Source: Clostridiaceae bacterium
GTDB taxonomy: Bacteria; Bacillota; Clostridia; Lachnospirales; Lachnospiraceae
DNA: 64,000 nucleotides
Direction: 5' to 3'
Assembly (NCBI GenBank): GCA_910574345.1
Contig: CAJSZV010000001.1
Span: forward strand, 167,127 to 231,126
Shown: in pieces, positions 42,609-62,797 of the stretch
Layout: each line of letters opens with the position of its first letter
Position numbering within the stretch: position 1 is the first letter of the stretch
Notes under the pieces: generated by a model
The model's input: the letters and a program-made list of their open reading frames with translations, nothing else
What the model was told of the DNA's origin: nothing
The model's database searches: none
Translations under genes and position numbers: made by a program

Positions 42609-42654
42609 ACAAAAAATCGTATCAAAAAGTGTACTTTTTGATACGATTTTTTGT
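42609..42654. terminator. Perfect 22-bp palindrome, probable bidirectional terminator
   Basis: The arms 42609-42630 and 42633-42654 are exact inverse copies around GT, with A-runs on the left and T-runs on the right (ATCGTATCAAAAAGT core). Such symmetry suits termination from both directions. A partial extra copy, TATCAAAAAGTACA, occurs at 42747-42760. Confidence 0.7.
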
Positions 42655-42818
42655 AGCACAAATTCTTAACTACTTTATCATAATATCGTCATAATTTCAA
42701 TAAACTTTAGGATTTTTCTTGTGGAATTTCACTCCAATTTCTCTGTTATCAAAAAGTACAGGATTTGAAATACTGCTTGAGGGAAATTGCCCGCAGCGAT
42801 GAGTAAAGAGGGGAATTC

Positions 42819-44138
42819 ATGTCCCAAAATAAGATTTGCAAGACCATCCATCAATACAATCAATATCCGGTTCCGGATACTGATATGCAGAAACTGCAGG
42901 AGATCGCAGAGGACTGCCGGACTGTGAGGAATTATGTATATGCCAGATACGGCGGAATCGGAAGCATGTCAAAGCTCTATCCAGGGTATACGGTTCAGAA
43001 TGAGATGACAGAAAGCGGCCTGCGGACGCGCCTGGGCCTGCCGTCGGTCTACTTTTATCTGGCCATATTCGATGCTCTCGGAGATATTAAAGCTCAGTGG
43101 AGCAGGACAAAGGCAAAGGTATTGGAGCTGGTCAATAAAAATGAAGGGTTTTCCCCTGAGGAAAAGCATTACTTAAGATTTCTCCTGAAAGTGAACAATG
43201 CATTTGAGGCCGCGGTAAATCAAAAACCGATGGTGCTCAGGAAGGATATTCAGAAAACCTATGATGAGCTGGCGGGAAAAACCGACACAGAAAAACTTTG
43301 CCGCTATCTGTGCAGGCAGGTAAGAAAATACCATGCGAAGCAGCATACAGATACGGCGGACGGGTTCAGCCTTTCCGAGAAGGCATACCGGTATGAAGAC
43401 CATGGCATCCATATCGCGATAAAGGAAAAACGAAAGCGCATCTTTATACCGCTGACTGACAATAACCAGTACAGAAGGCAGATCTACTTAAAGCTCCTGC
43501 CTGAGAAAAAGAGTATCCAGATAAAAGTGCCGGTAGATGTAAAAGCGCAGAGCCACGAGGATTACACAGGCCAGGCAGGCATAGCCATGGGGCTCCACAC
43601 CATGATAACAACAGACCAGGGCCATTGCTACGGAGAGGAATTAGGAGAGCTCCAGATGGAATACGCACAGTGGATGCGTGCCCAGACCGGAATCTATAAC
43701 AGGAACCGGGAAAACAATCCGGGACGGAAGAAATACAACGCCAAAAAGAGACGGATGCTGGAACAGCTGCACAGTTATATTAACCATGAACTGAACCGCT
43801 TTCTGGAGCAGGAAAAGCCTGGAACCGTCTATATGGTGCGTCTCCCGGCCCCCAGGCAGGGAGGGGTGAACCCTAAGATCAACCACACCATATCCATGTG
43901 GCAGAGAGGTTACATCAGGAAGCGCCTGAGACAGAAGTGTATGGAACAGTCAGTGGAGCTAGTGGAAGTGCTGGGGAAAGACATCAGCAATGTGTGCAGC
44001 AGCTGCGGCGCCATAGGAACAAAGACGGAAGGAATCTTCCGGTGCGGCACATGCGGATATGAGGCGGGAGAGAAGACCAACACAGCCCGGAATGTGAAAC
44101 TGAGGGGTCAGGGAGAGGGAAAGCTGGAGAGGCTTTAA
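42819..44138 (+). CDS. TnpB-family protein with apparently inactive RuvC site (TldR-like candidate)
   Basis: 439 residues with TnpB layout: N-terminal helical/wedge region, split RuvC fold and zinc ribbon with Cys393, Cys396, Cys409 and Cys412 (CSSC, CGTC). All three expected RuvC acids seem replaced: GIDLG-type motif reads GIAMG (Ala256), the E of motif II reads VYMVRL (Val340), and the D before NAARN reads KTNTARN (Lys419). No tnpA accompanies it, and about 430 bases of structured non-coding sequence follow. Nuclease-dead TnpB proteins are known as RNA-guided repressors (TldR). Whether this family works that way is inference. The start has AAAGAGGGG upstream. Confidence 0.8.
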   Translation: MSQNKICKTIHQYNQYPVPDTDMQKLQEIAEDCRTVRNYVYARYGGIGSMSKLYPGYTVQNEMTESGLRTRLGLPSVYFYLAIFDALGDIKAQWSRTKAKVLELVNKNEGFSPEEKHYLRFLLKVNNAFEAAVNQKPMVLRKDIQKTYDELAGKTDTEKLCRYLCRQVRKYHAKQHTDTADGFSLSEKAYRYEDHGIHIAIKEKRKRIFIPLTDNNQYRRQIYLKLLPEKKSIQIKVPVDVKAQSHEDYTGQAGIAMGLHTMITTDQGHCYGEELGELQMEYAQWMRAQTGIYNRNRENNPGRKKYNAKKRRMLEQLHSYINHELNRFLEQEKPGTVYMVRLPAPRQGGVNPKINHTISMWQRGYIRKRLRQKCMEQSVELVEVLGKDISNVCSSCGAIGTKTEGIFRCGTCGYEAGEKTNTARNVKLRGQGEGKLERL

Positions 44139-44482
44139 AGGTTACCGATTCCATACAGTCACAATCAGTAAAGATCATAAGGACAGCCATTTAGATAAAT
44201 ACCGGTGATGAGCCGGGATTTTACCGAAAGGACTAAAGGCAGGTCCATGATAAGGCAGGCAAGACCTGTTATAGAAAAAGAGAGAACGGCATTAGAAGGC
44301 GGAGAGCAGTGCAGACAGCAAACCGCGCATTGGGTATGCCAAGACCCTGTGAACATGTAAGGTCACGCCAAAGCGTGTGCAGGTTACCGGTACAAAAGTA
44401 CCGGCAGCGGAATAAGTGCATGACGTAGCGGGGAGCGAAGTGGGAAAGCCCACATCATCCGATCTGGAATAAACCAGCCAAG
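44139..44482 (+). ncRNA. Structured non-coding region after the TnpB-like gene, candidate guide RNA
   Basis: No credible ORF lies in 44139-44482. Stems seen: CAGGTC/GACCTG (44240-44268), CACGC-CAAA-GCGTG (44364-44377), CCGGTAC-AAAA-GTACCGG (44387-44404) and a last hairpin GTGGG-AAAG-CCCAC (44440-44453). Intact TnpB genes encode their omega RNA at and beyond the 3' end, with the guide after the last scaffold stem; by that analogy the guide would begin near 44454. Alternatively this is the 5' leader of the downstream operon. Confidence 0.5.
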
Positions 44483-44569
44483 ATGAACCAATATGCCCTA
44501 TTTTACTCAGGCAATGAGCCGTGCAGTTTCGGACAGAAGCAGAAAAAATATAGATCTAAAGGTGAAACT

Positions 44570-45943
44570 ATGAAAAAAGCAGACAAACAACAGGCAGAAG
44601 AGGTAGTGACGCTTTTAAAGCGTTCCCACACCCTTATAAAAAAGATGCTGGATGCAAGAAACCGTCCTGCAGCCTTAGAGCTATTGGAACAGTGTCAAAG
44701 CTGTGCCATAAGCCTGGGAGAGAAGATAGAGGCCGTAGAAGGAGAGAATGCATCCACAATCCCACTGTTGGAAAGTTACTGCGAATTAACATATCAGATA
44801 TATGAAAAGGTAAAACAGCCATACCCGGTTAATGGAAATCAAATACATAACGACTTGGCAAAAGAATTAATCAAAATAGGCAGCAGCATCAAACAGGACA
44901 TCCACACACGGACAGAAGCCGTATTCCTGCCATATAAAGCCTCCATGTGGGATTCCTTAGAAAGCATATGGAAGGCAGCCGACGAAGACCCGGAATGTGA
45001 TGCCTATGTAATTCCGATTCCATACTACGACAAAAATCCGGACGGAAGCTTCGGGCAGCTTCACTATGAGGGCAGCCAGTATCCGGATTACGTCCCCATA
45101 ACCAATTATCACGATTACCAGTTTGCCGAGCGCCAGCCGGATATCATATTTATCCACAACCCTTATGATGAATTTAACTACTTAACAAGCGTGCATCCGT
45201 TTTTTTATGCCCGTAACTTAAAACAATTTACAGAAAAATTAGTGTATGTGCCATATTTCGTTTTAGGTGAGCCGGATCTGGATAATCCTGATTCTATAGA
45301 ACAAGTATCCCATTTCTGTACGAATCCGGGAGTCATCTACGCAGACAAAGTCATCGTCCAGTCCGAAAACATGCGCCAGGTATATATCAAGGTCATGACA
45401 AAATTCATGGAGGGACATGGGTTTACAAAAAAAGACTGGGAGGAAAAGATATTAGGTCTTGGATCACCCAAAATGGATAAAGTCCTGAGCACAAAAAAGG
45501 AAGACCAGGAAATACCGGAAGAATGGCTGAAAATCATCCGAAAGCCGGATGGAAGTTTCAGGAAGGTGATCTTATACAATACAGGCCTGACGGCATTTTT
45601 GCAGCACAGCGAACAGTATCTGGATAAGATGAAAGATGTATTCCGAATATTTTGGGAGGAAAGGGAAGAGGTGGCGCTTTTGTGGCGCCCCCATCCGCTC
45701 CTTGCCAATACGGTAAAAACCATGCGACCTGCAATCTTAGAGAGCTATGAGAAATTAGTAGGCGAGTACCAAAAAGCCGGGTGGGGAATTTATGACGATT
45801 CGGCAGATCTTAACCGGGCTATTGCGGTGTGCGATGCCTATTATGGGGATGGAAGCAGCGTGGTGCAGCTGTGTGAAGAGGCGGGGAAGTTGGTGATGAT
45901 ACAGGATGTGGGGGTACTTAACAATCTTAGTGTTAACGAATAA
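44570..45943 (+). CDS. CDP-glycerol glycerophosphotransferase-like protein
   Basis: 457 residues. An N-terminal helical/coiled-coil part (about 1-110) precedes a GT-B-like domain of the TagB/TarF type: VYVPYFVLGEPD, the ALLWRPHPL block and YGDGSSVVQLCEEAGK near the end are typical. Such enzymes transfer glycerol phosphate units to surface polymers. The N-terminal helices replace the usual membrane anchor. The ATG at 44570 has AAAGGTG upstream, while the earlier in-frame ATG at 44483 lacks a site. It is the first gene after the TnpB-like RNA region. Confidence 0.75.
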   Translation: MKKADKQQAEEVVTLLKRSHTLIKKMLDARNRPAALELLEQCQSCAISLGEKIEAVEGENASTIPLLESYCELTYQIYEKVKQPYPVNGNQIHNDLAKELIKIGSSIKQDIHTRTEAVFLPYKASMWDSLESIWKAADEDPECDAYVIPIPYYDKNPDGSFGQLHYEGSQYPDYVPITNYHDYQFAERQPDIIFIHNPYDEFNYLTSVHPFFYARNLKQFTEKLVYVPYFVLGEPDLDNPDSIEQVSHFCTNPGVIYADKVIVQSENMRQVYIKVMTKFMEGHGFTKKDWEEKILGLGSPKMDKVLSTKKEDQEIPEEWLKIIRKPDGSFRKVILYNTGLTAFLQHSEQYLDKMKDVFRIFWEEREEVALLWRPHPLLANTVKTMRPAILESYEKLVGEYQKAGWGIYDDSADLNRAIAVCDAYYGDGSSVVQLCEEAGKLVMIQDVGVLNNLSVNE

Positions 45944-45963
45944 ATACTTGGAGGTATGAAAGG

Positions 45964-46497
45964 ATGGCTGATAAGGAGACAGAAAAAAAGCAGACATCGG
46001 GAAAAAAAGGAACGATAATCATTGCCATAAGCATGTTGCTGATTATTGTGCTTCTTGGGGTTATTGCCTTTTTGCTTTTGAGAGAAGAAAAGACAGAGGA
46101 ACCAAAGAGAAACGTTGTAGTAAATCAAAGCAATGCAGAGGAAATCGCTGGCGAGATGATAAGCCAGGAGTATGTTGCGCCTGGTTATTACAGTGCGTCT
46201 ATGACAACCACCTGGCATTTTGAAACAGGCGATGCAGCTTCCTATGATGCTTATGTTGCGAATGTTGCCGAGAATACCAATGATGTTTATTTTGATATTT
46301 TTTTGGCAGAACAGGAGGATGAACCGATCTATCAGTCGCCGGTTATACCGAGAGGAAGCGAGTTGGATGAGATTATTCTCGATAAATCCTTGGACGCTGG
46401 AACACATGACTGTATTTTGATTTATCACTTGGTAGATGGGGAACAGAAGACAGTAAGCACTCTTCGCGTTGCATTGACGATTATAGTAGAGAATTGA
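45964..46497 (+). CDS. Membrane-anchored extracytoplasmic protein, unknown
   Basis: 177 residues. A short lysine-rich cytoplasmic start is followed by one strong transmembrane helix (about residues 17-40, IIIAISMLLIIVLLGVIAFLLL) and an outer domain of about 135 residues with beta-rich, acidic sequence. The basic residues before the helix predict N-in orientation. It starts 20 bases after the glycerophosphotransferase and comes just before a secreted protein gene, so the three may form a surface unit. No catalytic motif recognised. Confidence 0.7.
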   Translation: MADKETEKKQTSGKKGTIIIAISMLLIIVLLGVIAFLLLREEKTEEPKRNVVVNQSNAEEIAGEMISQEYVAPGYYSASMTTTWHFETGDAASYDAYVANVAENTNDVYFDIFLAEQEDEPIYQSPVIPRGSELDEIILDKSLDAGTHDCILIYHLVDGEQKTVSTLRVALTIIVEN

Positions 46498-46565
46498 TAT
46501 TTCAACGGTAACTGCTGCGCTGCATGGCACAGTTTACAATAAAAAATATGAAAAGGAGAAAAACT

Positions 46566-47648
46566 ATGAGAAAAACAAAGAAAATGATGGCTCTTGCACT
46601 GGCGGCTAGTATGGTGCTGGGCAGTTCTGTTGTAGCTTTTGCGGCTGAGGGTGATGCTACTCCAGGCGGAAGCGGAACGGTTTCTGGTACAGGTGAGGTT
46701 GAAGGACATGTAAACAAGGAAGTACTGAATGTGATTCTGCCTACGGTTCCGTCAGACCAGGCTTCCGCTTTCGCTTATACCATGGATCCAGAGCGTTTGA
46801 TTCAGGGAACGGATGCTGCGAAATATGAGGAGGGAACCGTATTTCCGGCTGCAGATGCTGATACAGGAGTATATTTCCTGACGGACACTAAAACATACTC
46901 GAATGAAAGTAATACCTATCAGGTGGTTAACAAGAGTAGCTGCGATGTAGACCTTACTGTAAAAGTAAAGGCAACCCAGAATTCAGCAAAGGATATTACA
47001 CTTGCATCAAGCAATGGAGTGTCAACCACTGCTCCTGAGCTTTATCTTGGTTTAAAGGTTGGTTCTTCGGAACAGGCAGTATCTGCTACAGAAGCGACAG
47101 TGAATAAAACTCTTGCCGGAAATAAGAATAATTTTGAGATAACCGTTAATACAAAAGATGACGGTACAAAAGAGTATGCCTATAAAGAAAAAGATAGCAC
47201 CTCAGGCTGGAAAGCCATGAACATCAGCCTCACCGGTACAGTCAGCAAGCTTGATATTGCAAGTGATACCACTGCACCGACCGTAGATGTGACCTGGAGC
47301 TGGGCGAAGGCAGCTGATAATGCTACACCGAGTACGGATGTGGTTGAGTTTGTGGATGGGCCGCAGATAGTAGTGAGTACAGCAGGATTGATTAATATAA
47401 CAGGATTAACTGCTGATGCGAATTATAAAATGGTAAAAATTACAGAAGAGAACGGAACTGTAAATAATATAACTGCTGCACCAGTTGATTATATTTCAGA
47501 TAATTGGAGTGAAGCGAACGGCGGCGTTTTAGGGATACAGCTTAGTGCTAAGTGGATGGATTATCTGAAAGGGAAAACAGTAACATTTACTCTTACATTG
47601 TCAGATGATTCCGAGAAGACTACAGAGGTTACATTCCCGGCTTCATAA
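46566..47648 (+). CDS. Secreted surface protein, beta-rich, unknown function
   Basis: 360 residues. A classical signal peptide (KKMMALALAASMVLGSSVVAFA, cleavage near AFA-AE) is followed by a Thr/Ser/Gly-rich, acidic, cysteine-poor extracellular protein with Ig-like strand patterns. No LPXTG or C-terminal membrane anchor is visible, so it may be released or held by polymer or partner contact. The start has AAAGGAGAAAAACT before it. The preceding anchored protein could be its partner (inference from proximity). Confidence 0.75.
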   Translation: MRKTKKMMALALAASMVLGSSVVAFAAEGDATPGGSGTVSGTGEVEGHVNKEVLNVILPTVPSDQASAFAYTMDPERLIQGTDAAKYEEGTVFPAADADTGVYFLTDTKTYSNESNTYQVVNKSSCDVDLTVKVKATQNSAKDITLASSNGVSTTAPELYLGLKVGSSEQAVSATEATVNKTLAGNKNNFEITVNTKDDGTKEYAYKEKDSTSGWKAMNISLTGTVSKLDIASDTTAPTVDVTWSWAKAADNATPSTDVVEFVDGPQIVVSTAGLINITGLTADANYKMVKITEENGTVNNITAAPVDYISDNWSEANGGVLGIQLSAKWMDYLKGKTVTFTLTLSDDSEKTTEVTFPAS

Positions 47649-47848: not shown

Positions 47849-47903
47849 TATGATTTTGAAGCAGTTTGATTTTTTAACCCATTTTTTGGAGGATAAAAAA
47901 GAT

Positions 47904-48644
47904 ATGGAGTTATTAAAAGATAAAAGGGCGATTATTACAGGAGGAAGAGGGATTGGGTTTGCAATAGCCAGAAAATATTGTGAAGAGGGCGCGAAAGTCA
48001 TTATTACAGGCAGAAATGAAGAAAAACTGCTTCGGGCATGTTCACACATAGGGGAACGCTGCCAGTATATGGTATGGGATGTCAGAGATTTTGAAAATTG
48101 CAGTAATAAGATAGAAGAGGCCTCTGTATTGTTGAATGGGCCGATTGATATTTTGGTGAATAACGCAGGGGTATTGACTCAAAACGATTTTAAGTGGAAT
48201 TATTTAGATTTGACTCCGGAAGAATGGGATTATGTAATGGACACGAACTGTAAGGGAATGTATTTTATGTGCCAAAATATGGCCAAGCACATGATAAAAA
48301 ATAATGTAAAAGGCCACATTGTGAATATTACATCTGAAATGGGGCTTCGTCCGGCTTGTGTTACCTATGGCATTTCAAAATGGGGAACAGTCGGGATGAC
48401 AAAAGGTTTAGGTCTTAAGCTGGCGTCAAAAAATATTGTAGTGAATGGAATTGCGCCGGGAGCCATTACGACAGAAATGATGGGCTGGAAAGAGGGTGAT
48501 TCTGTATATAGGGACAGTCATGCCAACAAAAGGTTTGGATTTCCGGAAGAGATTGCAGAATTAGCGGCATTTTTGGGAAGCAGTAAAGGGGACAATATAA
48601 TTGGAGAAGTTGTTTTAAGTGATGGAGGAAGTTCTTTAAAGTAG
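47904..48644 (+). CDS. Short-chain dehydrogenase/reductase
   Basis: 246 residues, classical SDR. NAD(P) motif ITGGRGIGFAIA, NNAGVL, catalytic SEMGLRPACVTYGISKWG (Ser, Tyr, Lys triad) and the late APGAITTEM segment. The start at 47904 follows TTGGAGGAT; upstream in-frame starts run through the inverted repeat. It is the first gene of the tightly packed cluster, 15 bases before the aminotransferase. Substrate probably a sugar or cyclitol intermediate (inference from context). Confidence 0.9.
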   Translation: MELLKDKRAIITGGRGIGFAIARKYCEEGAKVIITGRNEEKLLRACSHIGERCQYMVWDVRDFENCSNKIEEASVLLNGPIDILVNNAGVLTQNDFKWNYLDLTPEEWDYVMDTNCKGMYFMCQNMAKHMIKNNVKGHIVNITSEMGLRPACVTYGISKWGTVGMTKGLGLKLASKNIVVNGIAPGAITTEMMGWKEGDSVYRDSHANKRFGFPEEIAELAAFLGSSKGDNIIGEVVLSDGGSSLK

Positions 48645-48659
48645 CAGGAGCGCCAAAAG

Positions 48660-49772
48660 ATGAAAAATGAAAAAATATTTGTGACAAAATCTTCGATGCC
48701 TGATTATGAAGAATATATTGAGGCAATTAAGCCTCTGTGGGATACTCACTGGCTGACGAATATGGGGCAGTATCATCAAGAACTGGAGCAAAAATTGAAA
48801 GAATATTTGGGTGTGCGGGAACTGTCCCTGATGGTAAATGGACATATGGCATTGGAATTGACAATTCAGGCCATGGGATTTCCAGAGGGTGCAGAGGTAA
48901 TCACAACACCGTTTACGTTCATTTCTACGACTCATGCTATTGTGCGGAATCGTTTGAAACCTGTATTCTGCGATGTAAAGCCGGAAGATGGGACTATAGA
49001 TGAGACAAAAATTGAAGAATTAATTACAGAACATACCGTGGCTATTGTGCCTGTGCATGTATATGGGAATGTGTGCAACGTAGAAGAGATCCAGAGGATT
49101 GCAGATAAGTATAGTCTGAAGGTGATTTATGATGCGGCACATGCATTTGGCGTGTCTTATAAAGGGAAAAAAATTGGAAATTTTGGTGATGCTTCTATAT
49201 TCAGTTTCCACGCGACAAAAGTATTCAACACCATAGAAGGCGGGGCGGCAGTTTTCTCAGATCATCGGATTTATGAAACATTGTTTAATTTAAAAAATTT
49301 TGGAATCCGGGGGGAAGAGATGGTAACAGAGGTTGGCGCCAATGCAAAGATGAACGAGTTTTGTGCTATCATGGGACTTTGCAATTTGAAACATGTGGAA
49401 GGGGCCATTGCCTGCCGGAAAGACCTGTGTGAAGAATATGACAGACAATTAAGAAATGTACCAGGGATTAAGATGTTTGAGACGAAGCCGGAAGTGGAGC
49501 GAAATTATGGATATTATCCAATCCTTATAGAGAAAGATTATCCTTTGAGCAGGGATGAGTTGTATGAAAAATTAAAAGAACAGGGCATACACACAAGAAA
49601 ATACTTTTATCCTTTAACCTCAGATCAGGCATGTTTTAAAAATAAATATCGAAGTGTGAGTTTAGGCTGTGCACGGGAACTGGCAAAAAAAGTGCTGGTA
49701 CTGCCAGTGTATGACAAGATGGAGGCAAAAACGCTGACATATGTAATAGAATCGATTAGGTCAAATTCTTAA
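48660..49772 (+). CDS. DegT/DnrJ/EryC1/StrS family aminotransferase
   Basis: 370 residues. Fold type I PLP enzyme for nucleotide-sugar or cyclitol amination: TPFTFISTTHAI, YDAAHAFGVSYKG, and the PLP lysine in SFHATKVFNTIEGG are family hallmarks, with FGIRGE and YYPILI following. It would place an amino group on a keto sugar made by a partner oxidoreductase, and two candidate oxidoreductases (SDR, Gfo/Idh) flank it. Confidence 0.92.
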   Translation: MKNEKIFVTKSSMPDYEEYIEAIKPLWDTHWLTNMGQYHQELEQKLKEYLGVRELSLMVNGHMALELTIQAMGFPEGAEVITTPFTFISTTHAIVRNRLKPVFCDVKPEDGTIDETKIEELITEHTVAIVPVHVYGNVCNVEEIQRIADKYSLKVIYDAAHAFGVSYKGKKIGNFGDASIFSFHATKVFNTIEGGAAVFSDHRIYETLFNLKNFGIRGEEMVTEVGANAKMNEFCAIMGLCNLKHVEGAIACRKDLCEEYDRQLRNVPGIKMFETKPEVERNYGYYPILIEKDYPLSRDELYEKLKEQGIHTRKYFYPLTSDQACFKNKYRSVSLGCARELAKKVLVLPVYDKMEAKTLTYVIESIRSNS

Positions 49773-49791
49773 AGTAGGTGATAAAGCTGTG

Positions 49792-50976
49792 ATGAAGGTA
49801 TTGTTGCTTTGCGCAAGTCATAATGATTTGGGGCTGGTGTATGCATTAAGGAAACTGGGGTATGAGATTATTGTTACTGGCAGTATACCTGGGCTTATAG
49901 GGGAAAAATATGCGGATGTTTATATAAAAGCGGATTATTCGAGGAAGGAAACCATATTAGAAATCGCACAAAAAGAAAAGATTGATGCGATTTGCGCTTG
50001 TTGCAATGATTACGGTGTATATACAGCAGCCTATGTTGCGGAAAAATTGGGACTCCTAGGGTATGATTCTTATGAGACAACGCGGATATTGCATAATAAA
50101 GATAAGTTTAAGGAATTTGCGAAAAAGAATCATATCATTTCGCCTTGGACAGAGGCATTTGAAAGTTATGATGCGGCAGTTGATTTTTTGAAAAATGTTC
50201 CGTTTCCGGTTATTGTAAAACCAACGGACGCCAGTGCTGGAAATGGAATAGAAAAAATTGATTCATTTGACAGAGGGGAAAAAGCTCTGCAAGCTGCTTT
50301 TGAAAAGTCAAGAATTGGAAAGATAGTAATAGAGGAATTTATAGAGGGAACACAACACGGATTTTGTACGTTTTTGATTAACCAAAAGGTTGTTGCAGTA
50401 TGTAGTAATAATGAATATTCTTTTATAAATCCATATAGGGTGGAGATAGATACATATCCGGCGGATAATTATGAGAAAGTATCTGCTCAGATAATTGCTC
50501 AAATTGAAAAGATTGCCTCGTTATTACGATTAAAAGATGGGATTTTTCATTTGCAATATATATATAAAGACGGGATCCCTCAAATTATTGAAGTGATGCG
50601 GCGGGTAATCGGAAATATGTATTTTGTTCCGGGTAATCTTTTGACAGGTCTTAATTGGGAATATTGGGAAGCAAGGGCAAGATGCGGGCTGTCATGCGAA
50701 GGATTTCCTCAGTATGTTTATCAGGAAGGTTTTTATGCATATAAGACAATTTTGGGCAGTAAAAACGGAGAAATAGAGTCTATTAATATTCCGTCCAAAT
50801 ATAGGAAATATTTGGTGAGGAAGTGTATTTTAAAGGAAAAAGGGGACAGAATTACGCATTATGAATCGGAACCTGTGGGATTTCTGTTCTTTATGTTTTC
50901 ATCTCAAGAGGAGATGAATCAGATTTTAATTAAAGAATATGATAATGCTATTGTGCGCATAAAAGATAATAGATAG
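49792..50976 (+). CDS. ATP-grasp ligase
   Basis: 394 residues. N-terminal Rossmann-like pre-ATP-grasp part (MKVLLLCASHNDLGLVYALRKLGYE) and ATP-grasp core with PVIVKPTDASAGNGI, IVIEEFIEG and the HLQYIYKDGIPQIIEVMRR metal-binding region. Such proteins link a carboxylate to an amine via acyl phosphate. In a glycan cluster it may attach an amino acid or other acid to an amino sugar. The ATG at 49792 follows AGGTGAT; a GTG lies one codon earlier. Confidence 0.85.
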   Translation: MKVLLLCASHNDLGLVYALRKLGYEIIVTGSIPGLIGEKYADVYIKADYSRKETILEIAQKEKIDAICACCNDYGVYTAAYVAEKLGLLGYDSYETTRILHNKDKFKEFAKKNHIISPWTEAFESYDAAVDFLKNVPFPVIVKPTDASAGNGIEKIDSFDRGEKALQAAFEKSRIGKIVIEEFIEGTQHGFCTFLINQKVVAVCSNNEYSFINPYRVEIDTYPADNYEKVSAQIIAQIEKIASLLRLKDGIFHLQYIYKDGIPQIIEVMRRVIGNMYFVPGNLLTGLNWEYWEARARCGLSCEGFPQYVYQEGFYAYKTILGSKNGEIESINIPSKYRKYLVRKCILKEKGDRITHYESEPVGFLFFMFSSQEEMNQILIKEYDNAIVRIKDNR

Positions 50977-50988
50977 AAGGAATATATT

Positions 50989-52170
50989 ATGAATAAACAT
51001 AATGAAATATGTATTGGAATGGCAGGTGCGGGGCGGGCAACAGAATTACATATGAATGGTTTGAAACGGTATTCAGGAGTTCCATTGTGTTTCAAACATA
51101 TTATTGCAAGAAGGTTTGAGCAAGTTAAGGTGGCGAAAGAAAGGTATGGTTTTGAAAATTCCAGCTTGTGTTTTGATGATTTATTGAGTGATCCGGAAAT
51201 AGATGTGATTGATATATGTACGCCGCCATATGTGCATGAGGAAATGATTATGAAAGCATTAAATGCCGGAAAACATGTTATTTGCGAAAAGCCATTAAGC
51301 GGATATTTTGGGAGTCTGGGTGATGAGGAGCCTATTGGATTGAAGGTTTCTAAAGTGAAAATGTATGACTCAGTACTTCAATCCCTGGAAAGACTGAAGA
51401 AGATCATTGATGCTTCCGACCGAAAGTTCATGTATGCAGAAAATTTTGTATATGCTCCGGCTATCAATAAGGCAGCTGAAGTTATCAGAAAGAAAAAGAG
51501 TAAAATTTTATATGCCAAGGGTGAAGAAAGTTTAAAGGGCTCCAGTTCACCGGTTGCCGGAGAATGGAATAAGACAGGCGGCGGAACGTTTATGAGAACC
51601 GGAGCACATCCGTTAGCGGCAATTTTGTGGCTGAAAAGACAGGAAGCTGATGCCAGGGGGGAAAAGATAGCAGTTAAATCAGTATTTGCAGATATGGGGC
51701 AGATCACGCCGGTTTTAACTCCCTACGAGCACCGGCATATTGCGGCATATCCCCATGATGTGGAAGATTGTGGAACCGTATTGCTTACATTTACAGATGG
51801 AACAAAGGCGACAATTATTGCCACAGACACATTGTTAGGGGGAAGCCGGAATTATGTAGAGTTATATTGCAATGATGCAGTGATTAACTGCAAATTGACA
51901 ATGTCCGATATTATGAGCACTTATTTTTTGGATGAAGACAGGCTGGAGGACGTCTATATTTCGGAAATGCTGCCCTCTAAGATTGGCTGGAATAATCCGT
52001 TTCTTGAAGATGAAATCATACGTGGATATACGGATGAAATGCGTGATTTTATGGATGCGATTTATTATGATAAGAGAGCAAAATCGGAGTTTGATTTGGC
52101 ATATGATACAACGAAAATTATTTATGCGGCGTATAAATCTGCTGAACTGGGTATAGCAGTGGAACCATAG
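50989..52170 (+). CDS. Gfo/Idh/MocA family oxidoreductase
   Basis: 393 residues. The N-terminal NAD(P) fold begins IGMAGAGRATELHMNGL; the catalytic EKP motif is in HVICEKPLSG. A second alpha/beta domain has TGGGTFMRTGAHPLAA with a catalytic-like histidine. These enzymes oxidise ring hydroxyls of sugars or cyclitols. With the DegT enzyme it resembles the NtdC/NtdA and RifL/RifK type of pairings that make 3-amino sugars (kanosamine). It is 9 bases before the DAHP synthase. Confidence 0.88.
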   Translation: MNKHNEICIGMAGAGRATELHMNGLKRYSGVPLCFKHIIARRFEQVKVAKERYGFENSSLCFDDLLSDPEIDVIDICTPPYVHEEMIMKALNAGKHVICEKPLSGYFGSLGDEEPIGLKVSKVKMYDSVLQSLERLKKIIDASDRKFMYAENFVYAPAINKAAEVIRKKKSKILYAKGEESLKGSSSPVAGEWNKTGGGTFMRTGAHPLAAILWLKRQEADARGEKIAVKSVFADMGQITPVLTPYEHRHIAAYPHDVEDCGTVLLTFTDGTKATIIATDTLLGGSRNYVELYCNDAVINCKLTMSDIMSTYFLDEDRLEDVYISEMLPSKIGWNNPFLEDEIIRGYTDEMRDFMDAIYYDKRAKSEFDLAYDTTKIIYAAYKSAELGIAVEP

Positions 52171-52179
52171 GTGATAAGA

Positions 52180-53205
52180 ATGAAATATGTGAGAAAACTC
52201 CCGGATGCAGATGAGATTATACAACAGTATCCTCTTGACAATGTACAGAAAAAGAATAGAAAACAACGGATTGATGAAATAGAAAAAATATTGTCGGGAA
52301 GGTCTGATAAAAAAATAATTTGTATCGGCCCTTGCTCGGCAGACAGGGAAGATGCAGTTGTTGAATATGTGCTAAAACTGGCCAAGATTCAGGAGGAGTT
52401 GAAGGATAAATTTTTTTTAGTGCCTAGAGTATATACAAGTAAGCCAAGAACAAACGGAACAGGATACAAAGGTCTTCTTCACAGGCCAGCCGTATATAGC
52501 GGGCATGATGATATATTTTCCGGTGTGATTGCTATGAGGAAAATGCAGCTTCATGTGATTCAGCAGACAGGTATGTTTTGTGCAGACGAGATGCTGTACC
52601 CGGAGGCGATGTATTATATTTTGGATTTGTTAGCTTATGTGGCAATTGGCGCACGTTCTGTGGAAAATCAGCAGCATCGGTTAACTGCCAGCGGCCTGGA
52701 AATACCTGTAGGAATGAAAAATCCCACCAGCGGAGATCTGGAAGTTTTATTAAATTCAATTATTGGAGCCCAATATCCACAATCTCTTTTATATAGGGGC
52801 TGGGAAGTACAGACGGAAGGAAATCTGTATGCACATGCTATTTTGAGAGGTTATACGGATTTATCAGGGAAGATACACCCTAATTATCACTATGAGGCTT
52901 TATGTGACTTCCACGATCTGTATCAGAAGAAGAATCTGAAAAATATGGCGGTATTGATAGACTGCAGTCACTGTAATTCAAGAAAACATTATGATGAACA
53001 AGAAAGAATTGCAAAGGAAATAACCGTATTATGTAAGGAAAACAAGGATCTGAACAGATTTGTAAAGGGACTTCTTATAGAGAGTTACCTTAAGGATGGA
53101 GCGCAGATGATTGGTGAGAATATATATGGAAAATCCATAACGGATCCTTGTCTGGGGTGGAATAGGACAGAAAGACTATTAAAGGAACTGGCTGATCTGT
53201 GTTAG
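52180..53205 (+). CDS. DAHP synthase (class I, AroF/G/H type) inside the glycan cluster
   Basis: 341 residues. IGPCSADRED, VPRVYTSKPRTNGTGYKGL, AIGARSVENQQHR, VGMKNPTSGDL and IDCSHCNSRKHY correspond to the PEP, metal and E4P binding segments of class I DAHP synthase. Some positions differ from the usual ESQVHRELASG and KNGTDG motifs, so the aldose acceptor may be altered. No other shikimate gene is here, so a special pathway is likely. The ATG at 52180 is preferred over the GTG at 52171. Confidence 0.88.
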   Translation: MKYVRKLPDADEIIQQYPLDNVQKKNRKQRIDEIEKILSGRSDKKIICIGPCSADREDAVVEYVLKLAKIQEELKDKFFLVPRVYTSKPRTNGTGYKGLLHRPAVYSGHDDIFSGVIAMRKMQLHVIQQTGMFCADEMLYPEAMYYILDLLAYVAIGARSVENQQHRLTASGLEIPVGMKNPTSGDLEVLLNSIIGAQYPQSLLYRGWEVQTEGNLYAHAILRGYTDLSGKIHPNYHYEALCDFHDLYQKKNLKNMAVLIDCSHCNSRKHYDEQERIAKEITVLCKENKDLNRFVKGLLIESYLKDGAQMIGENIYGKSITDPCLGWNRTERLLKELADLC

Positions 53206-53242
53206 ATCAGATGACCTGTTGGGAACGTGTAAGGGGTAGAAT

Positions 53243-54457
53243 ATGCGGATTGTACTTGTGAATGCTCATTGGAATAACAGAGGGGATGAAGCGGCATTAT
53301 ATGCATTAATAGAGGGAATCTGGAAGCTTGATTCAAAAATAAGGATAGATATTATTTTTAAGGAAACAAAAACAGTCACTCAGTTTTTATATGAGGGAAG
53401 GATAAGATATATTACGACAAGATTTCGTCCCCAAGAGGATGAAGTAAAATCTGCAATAGCATTTCCCGAAAGCTCTAAAAATGTTGACATGAAAAGGGAA
53501 ATGGAGTTTTTAAGGAATGCTGATATGGTAATATACGCGCCGGGAGGAAGCGTTATAAGTGATAGATTTTGGTGGACAAAACAATTGGAATATTTATTTC
53601 CTGTGGTATACGCACAGAGTTGTGGAATGAAAACCTTTTTTGCTGCTCCGTCTATTGGGCCGTTTACAGAAGAGCATAGATATAGAAATGAAATACTTTG
53701 TAAGGTGAATACAATTTGTCTGCGGGAGAATATAGGAAAGTCAGAATTAATAAGGTCTGTTGGAGAACTTGAACTTTCAAATTGTTTGGTGGGAAATGAT
53801 CTTGCATTTCTTGGCAATGTAAGTATGGAAGAAAACGATGATATTTTTAAGGAAGATAGGAGATTAGTTGAATATTGTAAGAGATATGAAAAAATAGCAG
53901 GTATTACAATAACGGATCTAAACTGGAATGTTGAGTTTGCAAAAGATGAAATACTAAGACAGAGGATAGAGGATTCGTTTAAACAATTTATACATTGGCT
54001 TGAAGAAAAAGGAATAGGTGTGATTCTTATTCCGCAGTTGTTTGGAGAACAAAATGACAAAGATTATTTGATGAAATATGCAAAAGCATGTACCAATGTG
54101 TTTGTTCTCAGCGAGAGATATGATCATTCATTCCAGCAGTATCTGATCTCAAAATGTTATGCGGTTGTTGGACTTAGATATCATTCCAATATCTTTGCCG
54201 CAAAAATGGAAGTGCCAATGATACCCATTATTTATGAACAGAAAATCAGGGGATTTTGTCAGGATTCTGGCATTTATGAATGGGGGATAGAAATAGATCA
54301 ATTATCAGATGAGACTTTAAAAGTAAAGTTTATGGAGTTAGAAAAGGACTATGGATATCGTAAGAAGAAACTGTTTGAGAAAAATAAGGAGTGGTTTGGG
54401 AAATCACAGAGAACAATGGAAGCCTTAAATGAGTTGATGAAACATAGTGAGGGATGA
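53243..54457 (+). CDS. Polysaccharide pyruvyl transferase family protein
   Basis: 404 residues of the WcaK/CsaB type. VNAHWNNRGDEAALYALIEG, ADMVIYAPGGSVISD, SIGPF and the late VVGLRYHSNIFAAKMEVP are hallmarks. Members transfer pyruvate from PEP to sugar hydroxyls, forming acidic ketals on surface glycans. Both this enzyme and the preceding DAHP synthase use PEP. Confidence 0.88.
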   Translation: MRIVLVNAHWNNRGDEAALYALIEGIWKLDSKIRIDIIFKETKTVTQFLYEGRIRYITTRFRPQEDEVKSAIAFPESSKNVDMKREMEFLRNADMVIYAPGGSVISDRFWWTKQLEYLFPVVYAQSCGMKTFFAAPSIGPFTEEHRYRNEILCKVNTICLRENIGKSELIRSVGELELSNCLVGNDLAFLGNVSMEENDDIFKEDRRLVEYCKRYEKIAGITITDLNWNVEFAKDEILRQRIEDSFKQFIHWLEEKGIGVILIPQLFGEQNDKDYLMKYAKACTNVFVLSERYDHSFQQYLISKCYAVVGLRYHSNIFAAKMEVPMIPIIYEQKIRGFCQDSGIYEWGIEIDQLSDETLKVKFMELEKDYGYRKKKLFEKNKEWFGKSQRTMEALNELMKHSEG

Positions 54458-54470
54458 TAGAGGATATAAT

Positions 54471-55973
54471 ATGGATCAGGATTTACAATATGTGCGGTTT
54501 AAAGAATCAAGATTTTACGGTTACTTTCAGAAAATGGTTGAGATGAAAAACAGACTGGAAGAGCAGGGCGTATATTTTCTGTTTGTACAAGTACCTTTGG
54601 AGAAAAATATAAAGAATCTTTCTGAATTTGAAAAGGAGAGACTTTCTGACTGGACTTTTGATTTTAACAATATTAGGGAAGAAGATTATAAGCGTATTTG
54701 CCAGATCTATTCTTGTGAAAGTGAAAAGGATGATGTGATAGATTACTTAAAAAAGGTTTATGATGGTGCCAAGGTTTTTGAAATGAACGGAATAAAATAT
54801 TTGGCGGATTTTAAAAGTGATCTGGTTAATGTAATTAATGGGAAAAGGGTAACTTATTATCAGCCGGAGAAATATGGCAATCATATTTATATGTTTGGGC
54901 AATGTACGGCAAGGGGAACGGGGGTTGAGGATAAAGATACCATAGCCAGTTTTCTGCAAAATGAAGTTAATAAAGCGTTCCCTGATTGTTATCGGGTCGA
55001 AAATATGGCAATTGGATGCGGCTCAGATATTCATGATGATATGGCTCATGCTGAAAAGATAGATTTCAGACAGAATGATATTGTTATATTCTGTACGAAC
55101 CTTGAGATAGTACCTGTGGAACTGTTTGAAAAGAATAAAATCAGCTATTTTGACTGTTCTGAAATATTTAATCGTCCCCATGAAAAAGGGGAATGGTTTA
55201 CGGATATGACCTGCCATACCAATGGGATTGGAAATGAAGCAATTGCGGATTTTATTTTAGAAAAATTATGCTTGTTAAATTGTCTGAATAAAAGCACAGA
55301 GCAGACAAACATTCCGCAGAATATGGCGGAGCCCGACTATACAAAGGTGCCTGAATTTGTAGATTATATAAAAGGTCTTGGTTTAAAAAAGAAAGCGGGA
55401 AATAATGGCTGTATTGTAATGAATGGTAATCCGTTTACATTTGGACATTTGCATTTGATAGAACAGTCGGCAAAGAAAGTGGACAATCTTTATGTATTTG
55501 TGGTGGAGGAAAATAAATCTTTTTTTCCGTTTGATGAGAGATTTCAGCTGATAAAAGAGGGAACAAAAGGCATTTCAAATGTTGAAGTTTTACCCAGTGG
55601 GAAGTTTATTATTTCAGCGCTGACTTTTCCGGGCTATTTTCTAAAGGATGGGAATAAGGAAATAGATGTTGATGTGACATCGGACGTATTGATTTTTGCA
55701 AAATATATTGCGCCGGCTCTTGGAATATCTGTTCGATTTGTAGGGGAGGAGCCTTTTGATTATGTTACGAGAAAATATAATGAAGAAATGAAACAGGTCT
55801 TTCCCCAGTATCATATTTCTTTAGAAATAATTCCGAGAAAGGAAACAAAAGATGGAATGGTAATTAGTGCTTCTTATGTGAGAGGATTGTTACAAAAACG
55901 GGAATTTGAATTAATAAAGGGGATAGTCCCGTTGGTTACTTATGAATATTTGAAGAGGAATTATGATAGATAG
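54471..55973 (+). CDS. CitC-like adenylyltransferase fused to an SGNH-like N-terminal domain
   Basis: 500 residues. The C-terminal 200 residues match citrate lyase ligase-type nucleotidyltransferases: CIVMNGNPFTFGHLHLIEQ (TxGH motif), YVFVVEENKSFFPFDERF and the SASYVRGLL end. The N-terminal 280 residues look like an SGNH/GDSL-type fold (IYMFGQCTARGTGVEDKD; later DMTCHTNGIGNEAIADF with D and H). No citrate lyase genes are present, so it probably adenylylates or activates an acid or phosphate in this pathway. The 3' end overlaps the next gene by 11 bases. Confidence 0.8.
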   Translation: MDQDLQYVRFKESRFYGYFQKMVEMKNRLEEQGVYFLFVQVPLEKNIKNLSEFEKERLSDWTFDFNNIREEDYKRICQIYSCESEKDDVIDYLKKVYDGAKVFEMNGIKYLADFKSDLVNVINGKRVTYYQPEKYGNHIYMFGQCTARGTGVEDKDTIASFLQNEVNKAFPDCYRVENMAIGCGSDIHDDMAHAEKIDFRQNDIVIFCTNLEIVPVELFEKNKISYFDCSEIFNRPHEKGEWFTDMTCHTNGIGNEAIADFILEKLCLLNCLNKSTEQTNIPQNMAEPDYTKVPEFVDYIKGLGLKKKAGNNGCIVMNGNPFTFGHLHLIEQSAKKVDNLYVFVVEENKSFFPFDERFQLIKEGTKGISNVEVLPSGKFIISALTFPGYFLKDGNKEIDVDVTSDVLIFAKYIAPALGISVRFVGEEPFDYVTRKYNEEMKQVFPQYHISLEIIPRKETKDGMVISASYVRGLLQKREFELIKGIVPLVTYEYLKRNYDR

Positions 55974-57051
55974 ACTAGAAAAATCTAAGTGTTGCGGGTG
56001 CGGAGCATGTGTGTCGGCGTGTCCGACAGATGCAGTTGTTATGAAAGAGGACAGGGAGGGGTATCTATATCCAAGAGTGGATGCAGAGGTGTGTGTTCAG
56101 TGTCAGATCTGTGAAAAGGTATGCCCGGCGGTGAAGAGAAGGTCAAAGAGGGATTCGCTTCTTAAGGCTTATGCCTGCTATTACCAGGAGGAAGGGATAC
56201 GTGCCAGGAGTACATCTGGCGGTATATTTTCGGCAATAGCAGAGTATTTGCTGGAAGAAAAAAAGGGAAAGGTATATGGAGTTTGTTTCAATGACAATTT
56301 TATGACAGAATACAGCAGCGCTGACAACAAAAATGAATTGGGGAAATTTCGGGGTTCCAAATATAGTCAATGTTCAGGGAATAATGTTTATCAGGATGTA
56401 AAAAAGGAACTTGCAAGGAGCAGAACCGTTCTTTTCTCTGGATTGCCTTGTCAGATTGAGGGATTGCGTTCTTATTTGGGAAGGGATTATGAGTCATTAT
56501 ACCTCCTTGATATGGTATGTTTTGGTATTGGGTCGCCGGGATTATGGAGAAGTTACAGAACAGAATTTCATCCTCATGCAGAGGAGATTTGTTTTAAGGA
56601 TAAATCCGAGGGCTGGAAGAATTGGAAAGTTTTTATAAGAGAAAATGGAGAGGATCACTATTATTCAAGATATGACAATTTGTACATGAAGAGTTACCTG
56701 GAAAGGATAAATTTGAGGCCGTCATGTTATGAATGTCAGTTTAAGGGGTTACAAAGAAATAGTGATTTCACGATTGCGGATTGCTGGGGAATGGGTGAAA
56801 AGAGTATTTTAAATGATAATAAGGGACTGTCAGCGTTATTGCTTCATACAGACAAGGCGGCAGATCTGTTTGAACAGATTAAGAATAAACTTCTTTTTGA
56901 AGAATATGATCCGGAACTGTTAATGGCGGGAAACTGGGCGGTATATAGGAATGCTGAAAAAAGCATAGAGAGAGAAAAGTTTTTTGAGCAAATATATCAG
57001 GGGGATTTTAAAGAAAATTACAGAAGGTTAATGGGAAGTATGAAAGAATGA
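55963..57051 (+). CDS. Coenzyme F420 hydrogenase/dehydrogenase beta-type Fe-S protein
   Basis: 362 residues. Two 4Fe-4S motifs at the N terminus (CCGCGACVSACP and CVQCQICEKVCP) precede an FrhB-like domain with STSGGIFSAIAEYLL, FSGLPCQIEGLRSYLG and SCYECQFKGLQRNSDFTIADCWG. In glycan clusters, members commonly accompany pyruvyl transferases and may reduce or remodel sugars; the exact reaction is unproved. It overlaps both neighbours by a few bases. Confidence 0.88.
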   Translation: MIDRLEKSKCCGCGACVSACPTDAVVMKEDREGYLYPRVDAEVCVQCQICEKVCPAVKRRSKRDSLLKAYACYYQEEGIRARSTSGGIFSAIAEYLLEEKKGKVYGVCFNDNFMTEYSSADNKNELGKFRGSKYSQCSGNNVYQDVKKELARSRTVLFSGLPCQIEGLRSYLGRDYESLYLLDMVCFGIGSPGLWRSYRTEFHPHAEEICFKDKSEGWKNWKVFIRENGEDHYYSRYDNLYMKSYLERINLRPSCYECQFKGLQRNSDFTIADCWGMGEKSILNDNKGLSALLLHTDKAADLFEQIKNKLLFEEYDPELLMAGNWAVYRNAEKSIEREKFFEQIYQGDFKENYRRLMGSMKE

Positions 57052-57941
57052 AAATATCAGAGATGTTTTGGGCTTTACTGATTGGTATTATTGTGTATTT
57101 ATGGATTGCCTGGCATATTCAAAAGAAGAGGAATCGTCTTGTACGGCTGAAGAAAAGTGCGGATATGGTTAATCTCGGAAGTACTTACGCCTACTATGAC
57201 TTTGAATATAGGAACTTGGGCATAGAAGGTTATAATCTGGCTAATATTCCACAGTATTTTGATGTGGATAGCATATTATTAAAAAAGTATGGAAAGAGAT
57301 TAAAAGCTGGTACAAAAGTTCTTTTTTGTGTTCCGGATTTCGTATTTGCGGCTAATAAAACAAATATGAAAAGAAAAGTGTATTATGAGGCATTGTATCC
57401 TTGGGAAATAGATAAGTATGATATTTGTTTTTTTATAAGACTTTTATGGAAGGCGGCAGCGGAGCCTATTACGCATTTCTATCAGAAGGAAGAGAAGAAA
57501 TGGGAGGGGCATATTGCATCTGTTGAAGAAAAAGAACACCATTTAGAAAAAAGAATTTATGACTGGGAGCATAATTTGGGAATCCCAAGTGTTAAAAGTG
57601 GTGAGATGACGGAGCAATTATATAAGAATATAACTGAAAATGAAGAGTTGTTAATGGAAATGATTTTGTGTTGTGAAAATAAGGGGCTGGAGCCTGTTCT
57701 TGTGGTTCCTCCGGTATCTGGTATGATGAAAAAGGCTGTCAGCATGCAATGCTTAAAGGTCTATTTATATGATCCTTTAAACCGGGTTAAGGAACATACG
57801 GGTGTGAAGGTATTGGACTATATGAATAGCGATGAATTTGATGATCTGGGATTATATTTGAATTCTGACTGTATGAATGAAAATGGGAGAGGGTTGTTTA
57901 TGAAGAGGTTGGTGGGGGATTTAATGAAAAAGGGCGAATAA
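57048..57941 (+). CDS. Membrane-anchored DltD/SGNH-like protein
   Basis: 297 residues. One N-terminal transmembrane helix (about residues 5-24), then NLGSTYAYYDFEYRNLGIEGYNLA, which resembles the nucleophile region of SGNH/DltD-like proteins, and a closing SDCMNENGRGLFMKRL where a DxxH motif would usually stand (here DxxN). It may act outside the membrane in polymer O-acylation or de-acylation, possibly inactive. It overlaps the Fe-S gene by 4 bases. Confidence 0.65.
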   Translation: MKISEMFWALLIGIIVYLWIAWHIQKKRNRLVRLKKSADMVNLGSTYAYYDFEYRNLGIEGYNLANIPQYFDVDSILLKKYGKRLKAGTKVLFCVPDFVFAANKTNMKRKVYYEALYPWEIDKYDICFFIRLLWKAAAEPITHFYQKEEKKWEGHIASVEEKEHHLEKRIYDWEHNLGIPSVKSGEMTEQLYKNITENEELLMEMILCCENKGLEPVLVVPPVSGMMKKAVSMQCLKVYLYDPLNRVKEHTGVKVLDYMNSDEFDDLGLYLNSDCMNENGRGLFMKRLVGDLMKKGE

Positions 57942-58005
57942 AGATGCTTATGGAGCAAAACTCTGAAAACAGATATGCAGTTTATTGTGAAGGGAAGAAT
58001 ATTAT

Positions 58006-59208
58006 ATGTCTCATGTTGTCAATACAGATACAATGGGAAGAAAAGAAAACATACACTTTATTGGCGGGGCTATTGTGGATGAATATTTATGGACAACTGC
58101 CTTGGAGTGGAATGGATATTATAAGATAAATGTCAGGACAGGATATACGGAATTTTTGGGTTTATTTGACTATGCGGATAGTTTAGCAGATAAGTTATTT
58201 AGCCGGGTTTTAGTACATAATAAGTTTGTTTTTTTTGTTCCATGGTTTTTTAATTATTTGGTGAGAGTAGATACAGAAACCTTAGATATCAGATACTGGA
58301 TGCTTCCGGAAAATATTACCCGTGAAATAGCAAAATTTAGAGCCGCATATATATACAACGGAAGGATCGTTATGTTTCCACATGTTGGAGATGATATCTG
58401 TATTTTTGATATTGAAAAAGGAGAATTCAAGTGCTGCAGAAACTGGATAAAAGAGTTGGATAAATATAAACTGAAAAATAAAGAAGATAAATTTCTTCAG
58501 GGATGTCAGATCGGGGAAATTGCCTATGTTGCAAATTCGTCTGATGGTTTTATAATGAAATACAATTTGCATAATGACACTTATGAAATAATATTATTTC
58601 CTGAAAGTGAAAAAGCGATTTTTGATGTTGAAAAGTTTGATGACAATTATCTGTTGATATTAACCGCTGTGGGGAATGTATGGAAATATAATATTATTAC
58701 ACATAACAGAGAATTAATATACCAATATCATGGAAGAACAAAAAATCCATATGGACATGTGATTGCAGAACAAAATTGTTTTTATTTAATTCCTGCAAAG
58801 GAGTCCAATATAAAATTTTTTGATGGAAAAAAGGAAATCGTTGTGCCGTATCCAGATGATTGGAAGTTACACTATATCAATGTAAATATAGAAACTGTTT
58901 TTAACGGATATTTGAGAAACAAAAATGAAATTTTACTTTATCCATGCCTGGGAAATAAATTACTAAAAATAAAACCGGGACAAAGAACAGCATTAGGCCT
59001 GGATATTCATGAGAACATTGAGGACAGAGCAGAGGGAGTGAGAAAACGGATCCTATCTTCTGGAATGTGCACGGAGTTGCTATACGAACCTAAAAGTAAT
59101 CTTGACTTGTATTTAAGTATTGTCAATGGAAAGGGAGAGAAGGCAGAGACTACAAAACATCCAAAAATAATAGGTCTGGAAATCTGGGATAAAATGAAAG
59201 GATTTTAA
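58006..59208 (+). CDS. Predicted beta-propeller protein, unknown
   Basis: 400 residues with repeating strand-turn blocks such as YYKINVRTG, LVRVDTETLDIRYW, DICIFDIEKGEFK, IMKYNLHNDTYEI and VWKYNIITHNREL, about every 45-50 residues, giving some six blades. No signal peptide or membrane helix. Kelch/WD-like surface-recognition or scaffold role possible; no catalytic residues recognised. A competing frame at 57944 overlaps its start and is rejected. Confidence 0.7.
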   Translation: MSHVVNTDTMGRKENIHFIGGAIVDEYLWTTALEWNGYYKINVRTGYTEFLGLFDYADSLADKLFSRVLVHNKFVFFVPWFFNYLVRVDTETLDIRYWMLPENITREIAKFRAAYIYNGRIVMFPHVGDDICIFDIEKGEFKCCRNWIKELDKYKLKNKEDKFLQGCQIGEIAYVANSSDGFIMKYNLHNDTYEIILFPESEKAIFDVEKFDDNYLLILTAVGNVWKYNIITHNRELIYQYHGRTKNPYGHVIAEQNCFYLIPAKESNIKFFDGKKEIVVPYPDDWKLHYINVNIETVFNGYLRNKNEILLYPCLGNKLLKIKPGQRTALGLDIHENIEDRAEGVRKRILSSGMCTELLYEPKSNLDLYLSIVNGKGEKAETTKHPKIIGLEIWDKMKGF

Positions 59209-59214
59209 AAACTT

Positions 59215-60363: not shown

Positions 60364-60405
60364 ACAAAGCAAATAAATTTTCATCAGTTATAGCAGGAGG
60401 ATTAA

Positions 60406-61347: not shown

Positions 61348-61399
61348 AATTCGGAATAAAAGGGGAAGATAATACAGTTGAGAGAGTTGGGAGAATAAT

Positions 61400-61444
61400 A
61401 TGATAAAAAAGATTATTAAATTTTGGGAGTTTAATTTTATATGA
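61400..61444 (+). CDS. Possible 14-residue upstream peptide coupled to the glycosyltransferase
   Basis: MIKKIIKFWEFNFI, with GGGAG before its ATG, ends at a TGA that overlaps the next ATG (ATGA). Could be a coupling peptide or chance. Confidence 0.25.
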   Translation: MIKKIIKFWEFNFI

Positions 61445-62760: not shown

Positions 62761-62797
62761 GAAAAAATATTCGACACTTTTTGGAAGGAGAAGAGAG

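Follow-up and report, generated by a model that had tools for sequence, protein, structure and literature searches.

The 64,000-nucleotide stretch of a Clostridiaceae bacterium genome analysed here (the window) encodes a TnpB-like protein, dTnpB, in which all three catalytic acids of the RuvC nuclease site are replaced. We found that dTnpB belongs to a real, conserved, nuclease-dead clade that has a guide-type RNA and is linked to surface-glycan operons, which are probably phase-variable. The data best support RNA-guided repression of rival glycan loci, and dTnpB is probably a TldR-like, RNA-guided DNA-binding repressor of rival glycan operons, perhaps in a system of phase-variable exclusion. 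An earlier note on this DNA had suggested a maintained nuclease-dead TnpB that controls expression. That suggestion is supported by the clade-wide loss of the acids, the guide-type RNA, a switch-like segment and sites at glycan genes, with repression as its predicted form. The RNA, the switch and the sites are new here. Genomes, contigs and loci are designated by G, C and L numbers.

The dTnpB open reading frame (ORF) is full length, 439 amino acids, and its ATG is preceded by the ribosome-site-like GAGGGG, as the earlier note had described. The protein passes the Pfam Cas12f1-like_TNB profile (29.3 bits, cut-off 26.3), scores 39.2 bits against NCBIfam guided_TnpB, below the cut-off of 100, and has a whole-chain fold like those of the TnpB/Cas12f nucleases 8h1j, 8exa, 9nzs and 8dzj in the PDB. 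A close set of 122 sequences was made up of the query, a second copy from the same genome and 120 homologues listed of 1727. In this set position 256 is Ala in 93 and Ser in 29, position 340 is Val in 85, Ala in 35, Thr in 1 and Met in 1, and position 419 is Lys in 122/122; the four zinc cysteines are unchanged in 122/122. None of the 122 retains a RuvC acid at positions 256, 340 or 419, and neither does any member of a diverse set of 38 (the window's sequence and 37 others, identity down to 32-34%). The family profile found six TnpB proteins in related genomes, of which the three that keep Asp, Glu and Asp (D/E/D) were used for comparison. In this alignment positions 256 and 419 coincide with the two Asp residues, and position 340 lies within one residue of the Glu; no acid occurs at 338-343 in the 38 diverse sequences. 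HMMER also aligned Lys419 of the family to the Asp of two solved Cas12f proteins. The replacement of all three acids, with the zinc ribbon and fold kept, had been proposed from one sequence and is borne out throughout the sequences compared: dTnpB has a TnpB/Cas12f fold and its RuvC site is dead across the clade.

The intact D/E/D of an IS200/IS605 or IS607 TnpB nuclease is absent from dTnpB. As the earlier note had stated, no transposase partner was seen: there is no TnpA-type gene among the neighbours in the window (by Pfam), and none was found by inspection, with no TnpA profile run, in the neighbour clusters of 37 loci. The part scanned for CRISPR arrays (42000-46600) holds only short two-copy direct repeats, and no group I intron, an IStron trait, was matched by Rfam in the window at the gathering threshold.

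Directly 3' of the dTnpB gene is a conserved stretch of ~350-400 nt with the two parts expected of the RNA of a TldR, a scaffold and a lineage-specific 3' end. The scaffold was found in 37 of 38 loci, the exception being L069. The core of the RNA forms helices rich in compensatory changes. In 27 loci it has 39 pairs, 19 of them with at least two Watson-Crick types, and 90.9% of the cells are paired, compared with 78.5% (standard deviation 0.7, maximum 80.4%) in 300 column shuffles, which do not preserve relatedness. The set leaves out L080, L036, L081 and L073, which lacked the script's anchors, and L024 and L067, which exceeded the usable length; L033 and the loci with a second guide type are not part of it either. 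The window RNA (44139-44520) folds better than 100/100 shuffles (z -3.59). A helix of ATTGG and CCAAT sits immediately 5' of the variable 3' end, and its letters are altered on both sides in divergent loci (by eye). The helix script found no anchor in 7 of 34 rows and a different best helix in several; L035 and L076 appear unpaired. TnpB and Cas12f RNAs likewise end before the guide, after a closing helix. We infer that the guide-type RNA belongs to the dTnpB clade and is bound by the protein. It had no Rfam match at the gathering threshold, and RT-17 was rejected as its identity (E 0.29 only). After the guide, GCAATGAGC-GT-C letters are common to the window (44517-44586), L023 and L032, with a weak RT-17 likeness in the window.

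The gene run beyond the RNA extends to 63958 and is a surface-glycan locus, as had been claimed. Its first gene, c1, is glycan-transferase-like. Among 37 loci with called genes (L003, with no ORF called, was left out), c1 lies within six genes of dTnpB in 26, and 21 of the 28 such c1 genes follow dTnpB either directly or with a single ORF between. Other loci have a c4-c3 surface-protein pair, TagD-like cytidylyltransferases, epimerases or aminotransferases (names partly by inspection). c1 was present in 9/9 genomes with a substantial dTnpB versus 24/145 relatives overall. The two genes occur together in 16/16 genomes of a second set, seven of them already in the 145-relative set, and in 9/9 genomes of a third set (G689 weakly; in G421 and G445 dTnpB is present just as fragments). 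G023, with a 50-residue match (E 9e-4) and no c1, was not counted among the dTnpB genomes. The highest excess codon conservation of c1 across dTnpB genomes is at codons 406-417, around YDDSADLNRA.

Upstream of dTnpB, two inverted recombination-type sites enclose a promoter that was called by eye from the sigma-A consensus; the promoter pattern scan did not flag the window copy. Inverted sites surround such a segment in 15 of 38 loci, against 0.94 expected from other stretches. Some relatives carry the promoter TTGATT-17-TAGAAT, and L027 also shows a sigma-A-like promoter between inverted sites (by eye). The promoter points toward dTnpB in some genomes and away in others, with no single strain seen in both states; the segment may invert. 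The other upstream design, a tyrosine recombinase encoded at most four genes away, was seen in 15/37 loci, which often have one palindrome ahead of dTnpB; Phage_integrase is matched by four of the recurrent recombinases. A single palindrome, TCGCAGA-N-TCTGCGA, lies ahead of dTnpB in 12/38 loci by pattern (L068, L074, L079, L076, L081 and others) and is perhaps a recombination site. At a c1 locus without dTnpB in the window's genome (L121, G000:C7), the promoter upstream of c1 is of the type found in the invertible segments, and this region also contains GGTCAAAAGG / TTTTGACC repeats (both by eye).

Sites resembling the variable 3' end were located in the genomes. The guide consensus ATATRCCTTATTTTA has 13 exact matches: 7 in guide genes, 5 in c1 genes (at LVYIPYF codons) and 1 in non-coding DNA. 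An extended 22-nt site, AGTATATATACCTTATTTTATA, searched with three mismatches in 27 dTnpB genomes (25 clear, 2 with fragments), gave 24 matches, 14 inside c1 genes and 10 ahead of glycan or surface genes. Larger regions were read around seven of these 10 leader sites and around a site in G006, a relative without substantial dTnpB. In all eight, surface-glycan or surface-protein genes follow the site (names by inspection), at a distance of 42-198 nt. The exception is G362:C42, in which the DNA following the site is broken and no long ORF starts until 742 nt further on. AGTAT is found ahead of 17/24 sites, a count biased by a search pattern that contained these letters. Among six exact non-guide matches of the shorter word, AGTAT precedes five and AGTTT one. 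Guide genes hold GACCA or similar at this place, so that AGTAT looks like a target-adjacent motif (TAM) that is absent from the guide gene.

Guides fit the leader element of their own genome in 11.75 of 16 letters versus 11.37 when permuted (p 0.001; 16 guides, 8 genomes), and permuting the leader elements among genomes gave p 0.005-0.006. The test used one element per genome, and for G385 this came from a profile scan made afterwards. Left out were a second G352 element (the same 16 letters), the G362 C42 element and copies in the own leaders of dTnpB loci. It is a post hoc test, its elements having been chosen once the pattern had been seen, and shared ancestry may contribute to the signal. 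The fit is specific to the genome for leaders and absent for c1 sites (see below).

These results suggest a mechanism. With the promoter ON, dTnpB, the scaffold-guide RNA and the first glycan genes would share one transcript. The protein would bind the scaffold-guide RNA, and the guide, presumably starting right after the CCAAT helix, would direct the complex to AGTATAT-ATAYCTTATTWTATA sites. Such targets would be located in the leader or promoter of other surface-glycan operons, within c1-type genes, or in both. Because it has no RuvC acids, dTnpB at its target would block transcription instead of cutting the DNA. The guide gene has GACCA scaffold letters in the place where most sites have AGTAT, the presumed TAM, which would keep the locus from binding its own guide gene. 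The outcome would be a phase-variable exclusion in which the switched-on glycan silences its rivals. That a clade of Lachnospiraceae and relatives silences many rival glycan operons through a common TAM-plus-target site in their leaders and in c1 genes, each sparing its own guide gene, has in our view a slightly less than even chance of being true. Action in trans may be reflected in G362, where L069 has the dTnpB gene without the RNA, and elsewhere an inverted-repeat promoter is followed by the RNA without the gene and then by an exact site. This split fits a complex working in trans, or decay.

A number of observations weigh against the proposed repressor. With one mismatch the guide consensus has 62 matches in 19 genomes, and its reversed control has 66. 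The reversed 22-nt control gave 11 matches in the same 27 genomes, and the 22-nt pattern was built from sites already seen and includes the presumed TAM. The 136 relatives without substantial dTnpB hold 33 site matches. Among the 24 of these that were examined, the one in G006 lies before a glycan operon (TagD-like), and a second lies, weakly, ahead of a GT2 gene. Six loci (L004, L031, L066, L072, L069 and L196) have a target-like site in the leader of the locus itself, 3' of dTnpB or the RNA, an arrangement hard to square with simple self-sparing. The genome of the window showed no leader site within 3 mismatches, and the window itself had none. An exact 22-nt site does occur in the c1 on contig C7 of this genome, where no dTnpB was found beside it; it agrees with the window guide in 11/14 letters and with the guide of the second dTnpB copy in 12/14. 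The guides of this genome match their own c1 in 9/14 and 10/14, and the window guide matches the c1 of the second copy in 11/14, equal to the C7 match. Guide-leader matches cover 10-14 of 16 letters. RNAalifold pairs the first guide letters, ATGCC, with GGCAT in the scaffold. This modelled pairing would interfere with guiding, and it suggests either that these letters belong to the scaffold or that alternative folds compete.

The c1 sites fit the guides of their own genome no better than permuted ones (p 0.40-0.49) and show no excess codon conservation (best rank 147/303 windows), and local best matches of guide-length words were barely above shuffles (mean z 0.40 at best). c1 as the sole target is not supported by these permutation, codon and local-scan tests. 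In 13/33 loci (one tie) the guide profile finds its best non-self match at the c1 site, and matching against shuffled codons gave a mixed result (Stouffer z 4.7 over 41 c1 genes in dTnpB genomes, 1.4 over 12 in dTnpB-negative genomes). A guide placed after CCTTATT was rejected, having no target nearby. The 3' ends differ in the divergent loci L161, L162, L163/L164, L037/L038/L082 and L268. A second, AATYCKTATGATAA-like guide type was noted in L268, L037, L038, L082, L163 and L164, and in L268 it resembles the codons for HNPYDN, another conserved motif of c1. It matches the HNPYD codons of c1 in 13/16 letters in G009 and 12/16 in G010, where unrelated stretches scored equally; no such c1 match was seen for G417, G675 or L268 in the stretches examined. 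The resemblance of the L268 and L037 guides to HNPYD may reflect retargeting within one gene family.

Similar leaders could also arise by shared descent without any guiding. The RNA would then be a cis-acting structured leader of glycan operons with dTnpB as no more than its RNA-binding partner, and ancestry or gene conversion would make its 3' end resemble other leaders. Often just a few tens of nucleotides separate the RNA from the first glycan gene, leader elements are similarly placed in loci without dTnpB, and ancestry alone could yield the within-genome fit. However, the 5' halves of the sites differ: AGTAT precedes most leader and c1 sites (a pattern-biased count) and five of the six exact non-guide matches, whereas guide genes hold GACCA or similar. 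The scaffold is also closed by a pairing helix directly before the guide, as in the RNAs of TnpB and Cas12f, and dTnpB and the RNA lie apart in G362. We regard this explanation as unlikely, though as the most serious rival.

A positive role is less likely still. dTnpB and its RNA could help transcription of the long glycan operon to begin or to read through, acting on the nascent transcript or at leader sites; polysaccharide antiterminators and dCas12f-sigma systems provide models. Their position at the 5' end of long gene runs and the presence, in some leaders, of a site downstream of the RNA would suit such a role, but no sigma or NusG-type partner was seen in 16 neighbour clusters (read from printed starts), and the sites of L264 and L266, which seem by eye to overlap a TTGACA-type promoter, suit blocking better. 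It is quite improbable that what the complex directs is not transcription but inversion or exchange at the loxP-like sites: the nearby recombinases and inverted sites described above would agree with this, but the guide-matching sites lie in leaders and c1, not at recombination-type sites (by inspection). A decaying, functionless transposon remnant, as the broken copies L039, L084 and L080 might suggest, is hardly credible given mostly open full-length frames, an invariant zinc ribbon and a covarying RNA in distant copies.

Table 1. Positions of dTnpB, its RNA, the putative upstream switch and the glycan genes in the window.
Feature	Position	Strand	Remarks
Left recombination-type site	42620..42643	.	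Inner part of a perfect 23-bp inverted repeat, 42608-42655; repeat search, inverted-repeat scans
Putative invertible segment, ~103 nt	42644..42746	.	Promoter here points away from dTnpB (OFF); repeat search and inspection
Sigma-A-like promoter in segment	42672..42700	-	-35 TTGAAA 42700-42695, 17-nt spacer, -10 TAAAGT 42677-42672; by eye
Right recombination-type site (TATCAAAAAGTACAGGATTTGA)	42747..42768	.	Repeat search
Nuclease-dead TnpB-like protein (dTnpB), 439 aa	42819..44138	+	A256, V340, K419; zinc ribbon C393-C396-C409-C412
Guide-RNA-type scaffold	44164..44492	+	5' end uncertain; conservation, covariation (window copy included), folding
Scaffold closing helix	44329-44333, 44488-44492		ATTGG can pair with CCAAT
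Putative guide ATGCCCTATTTTACTC	44493..44508	+	Start and length inferred
c1, glycan-transferase-like, first gene after the RNA	44570..45943	+	Glyphos_transf 15.1 bits, cut-off 22.1; start by homology
Degenerate version of the site in c1	45245-45259		YVPYF codons
c4, one membrane-anchor-like stretch, recurrent neighbour	45964..46497	+	Function by inspection
c3, secreted-type surface protein, recurrent neighbour	46524..47648	+	Function by inspection
Rest of the surface-glycan run	47850..63958	+	SDR, DegT aminotransferase, ATP-grasp, GFO/IDH/MocA, DAHP-synthase family, polysaccharide pyruvyl transferase, cytidylyltransferase-like, FkbM methyltransferase, GT2, others

Aspartate-semialdehyde dehydrogenase and TatD genes lie upstream of dTnpB in the window. 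Further upstream, at 36639-36814, are two tandem GA-cis RNAs (Rfam RF02987) ahead of a topoisomerase-like gene (name by inspection).

The family is large and patchily distributed. One search found 1727 homologous protein clusters at E up to 0.001, with the acid loss checked in the 120 listed homologues. The gene was present in 10/145 relatives, in one of them as a 50-residue fragment. dTnpB matches occurred in 26/397 genomes of a family draw and 13/392 of an order draw, several of them weak, fragmentary or ordinary TnpB. G009 has seven matches, fragments counted, and the second copy in the window's genome is 64% identical. L039 and L084 are broken copies in genomes that also have intact ones. 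Relatives are present on two IMG/VR contigs; a phage or plasmid origin was rejected, as phage and plasmid records gave only distant matches (20.8-27.1% identity).

TldRs are reportedly TnpB-like nuclease-dead repressors, said to have been described by Wiegand and colleagues in Nature in 2024, and known ones serve flagellin and oppF-type genes. Like dTnpB, they have lost the RuvC acids, keep the fold, encode a guide RNA just downstream and adjoin an alternative version of the regulated target. The dTnpB clade differs in its gene setting, surface-glycan operons. TnpB/Cas12f nucleases share the whole-chain fold and zinc ribbon, and TnpB RNA is also encoded beside its gene; dTnpB differs in lacking the catalytic acids, with no transposase and no CRISPR array seen. 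Bacteroides phase-variable capsule loci combine invertible promoters before surface-polysaccharide operons with trans-acting protein inhibitors. dTnpB loci resemble them in the promoters and the suspected mutual exclusion, whereas an RNA-guided protein is proposed here in place of the inhibitors. A further parallel is the csrA-linked TldRs of Oscillibacter and Flavonifractor, which occur with hin genes, promoter inversions of ~120 bp and guides to flagellin genes (PMC13418256). These too belong to gut commensals and have an upstream promoter inversion, ORF-targeting guides and several loci per genome with predicted cross-targeting; their partners are hin, csrA and fliC (PMC13418256). dTnpB is accompanied by glycan genes and by a tyrosine recombinase or sites of the recombinase type. 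A literature search, which did not cover bioRxiv, found no glycan-linked TldR.

To our knowledge, RNA-guided repressors come from few natural settings. If our proposal is true, a whole clade would control the surface sugars of gut-type bacteria, the host of the window probably being a gut species, and these sugars influence how the cells interact with phages and the host. The clade would also yield compact natural CRISPR interference (CRISPRi)-like proteins with an unusual AT-rich target. DNA inversion would be linked to RNA-guided silencing, which would explain the choice of one glycan among several.
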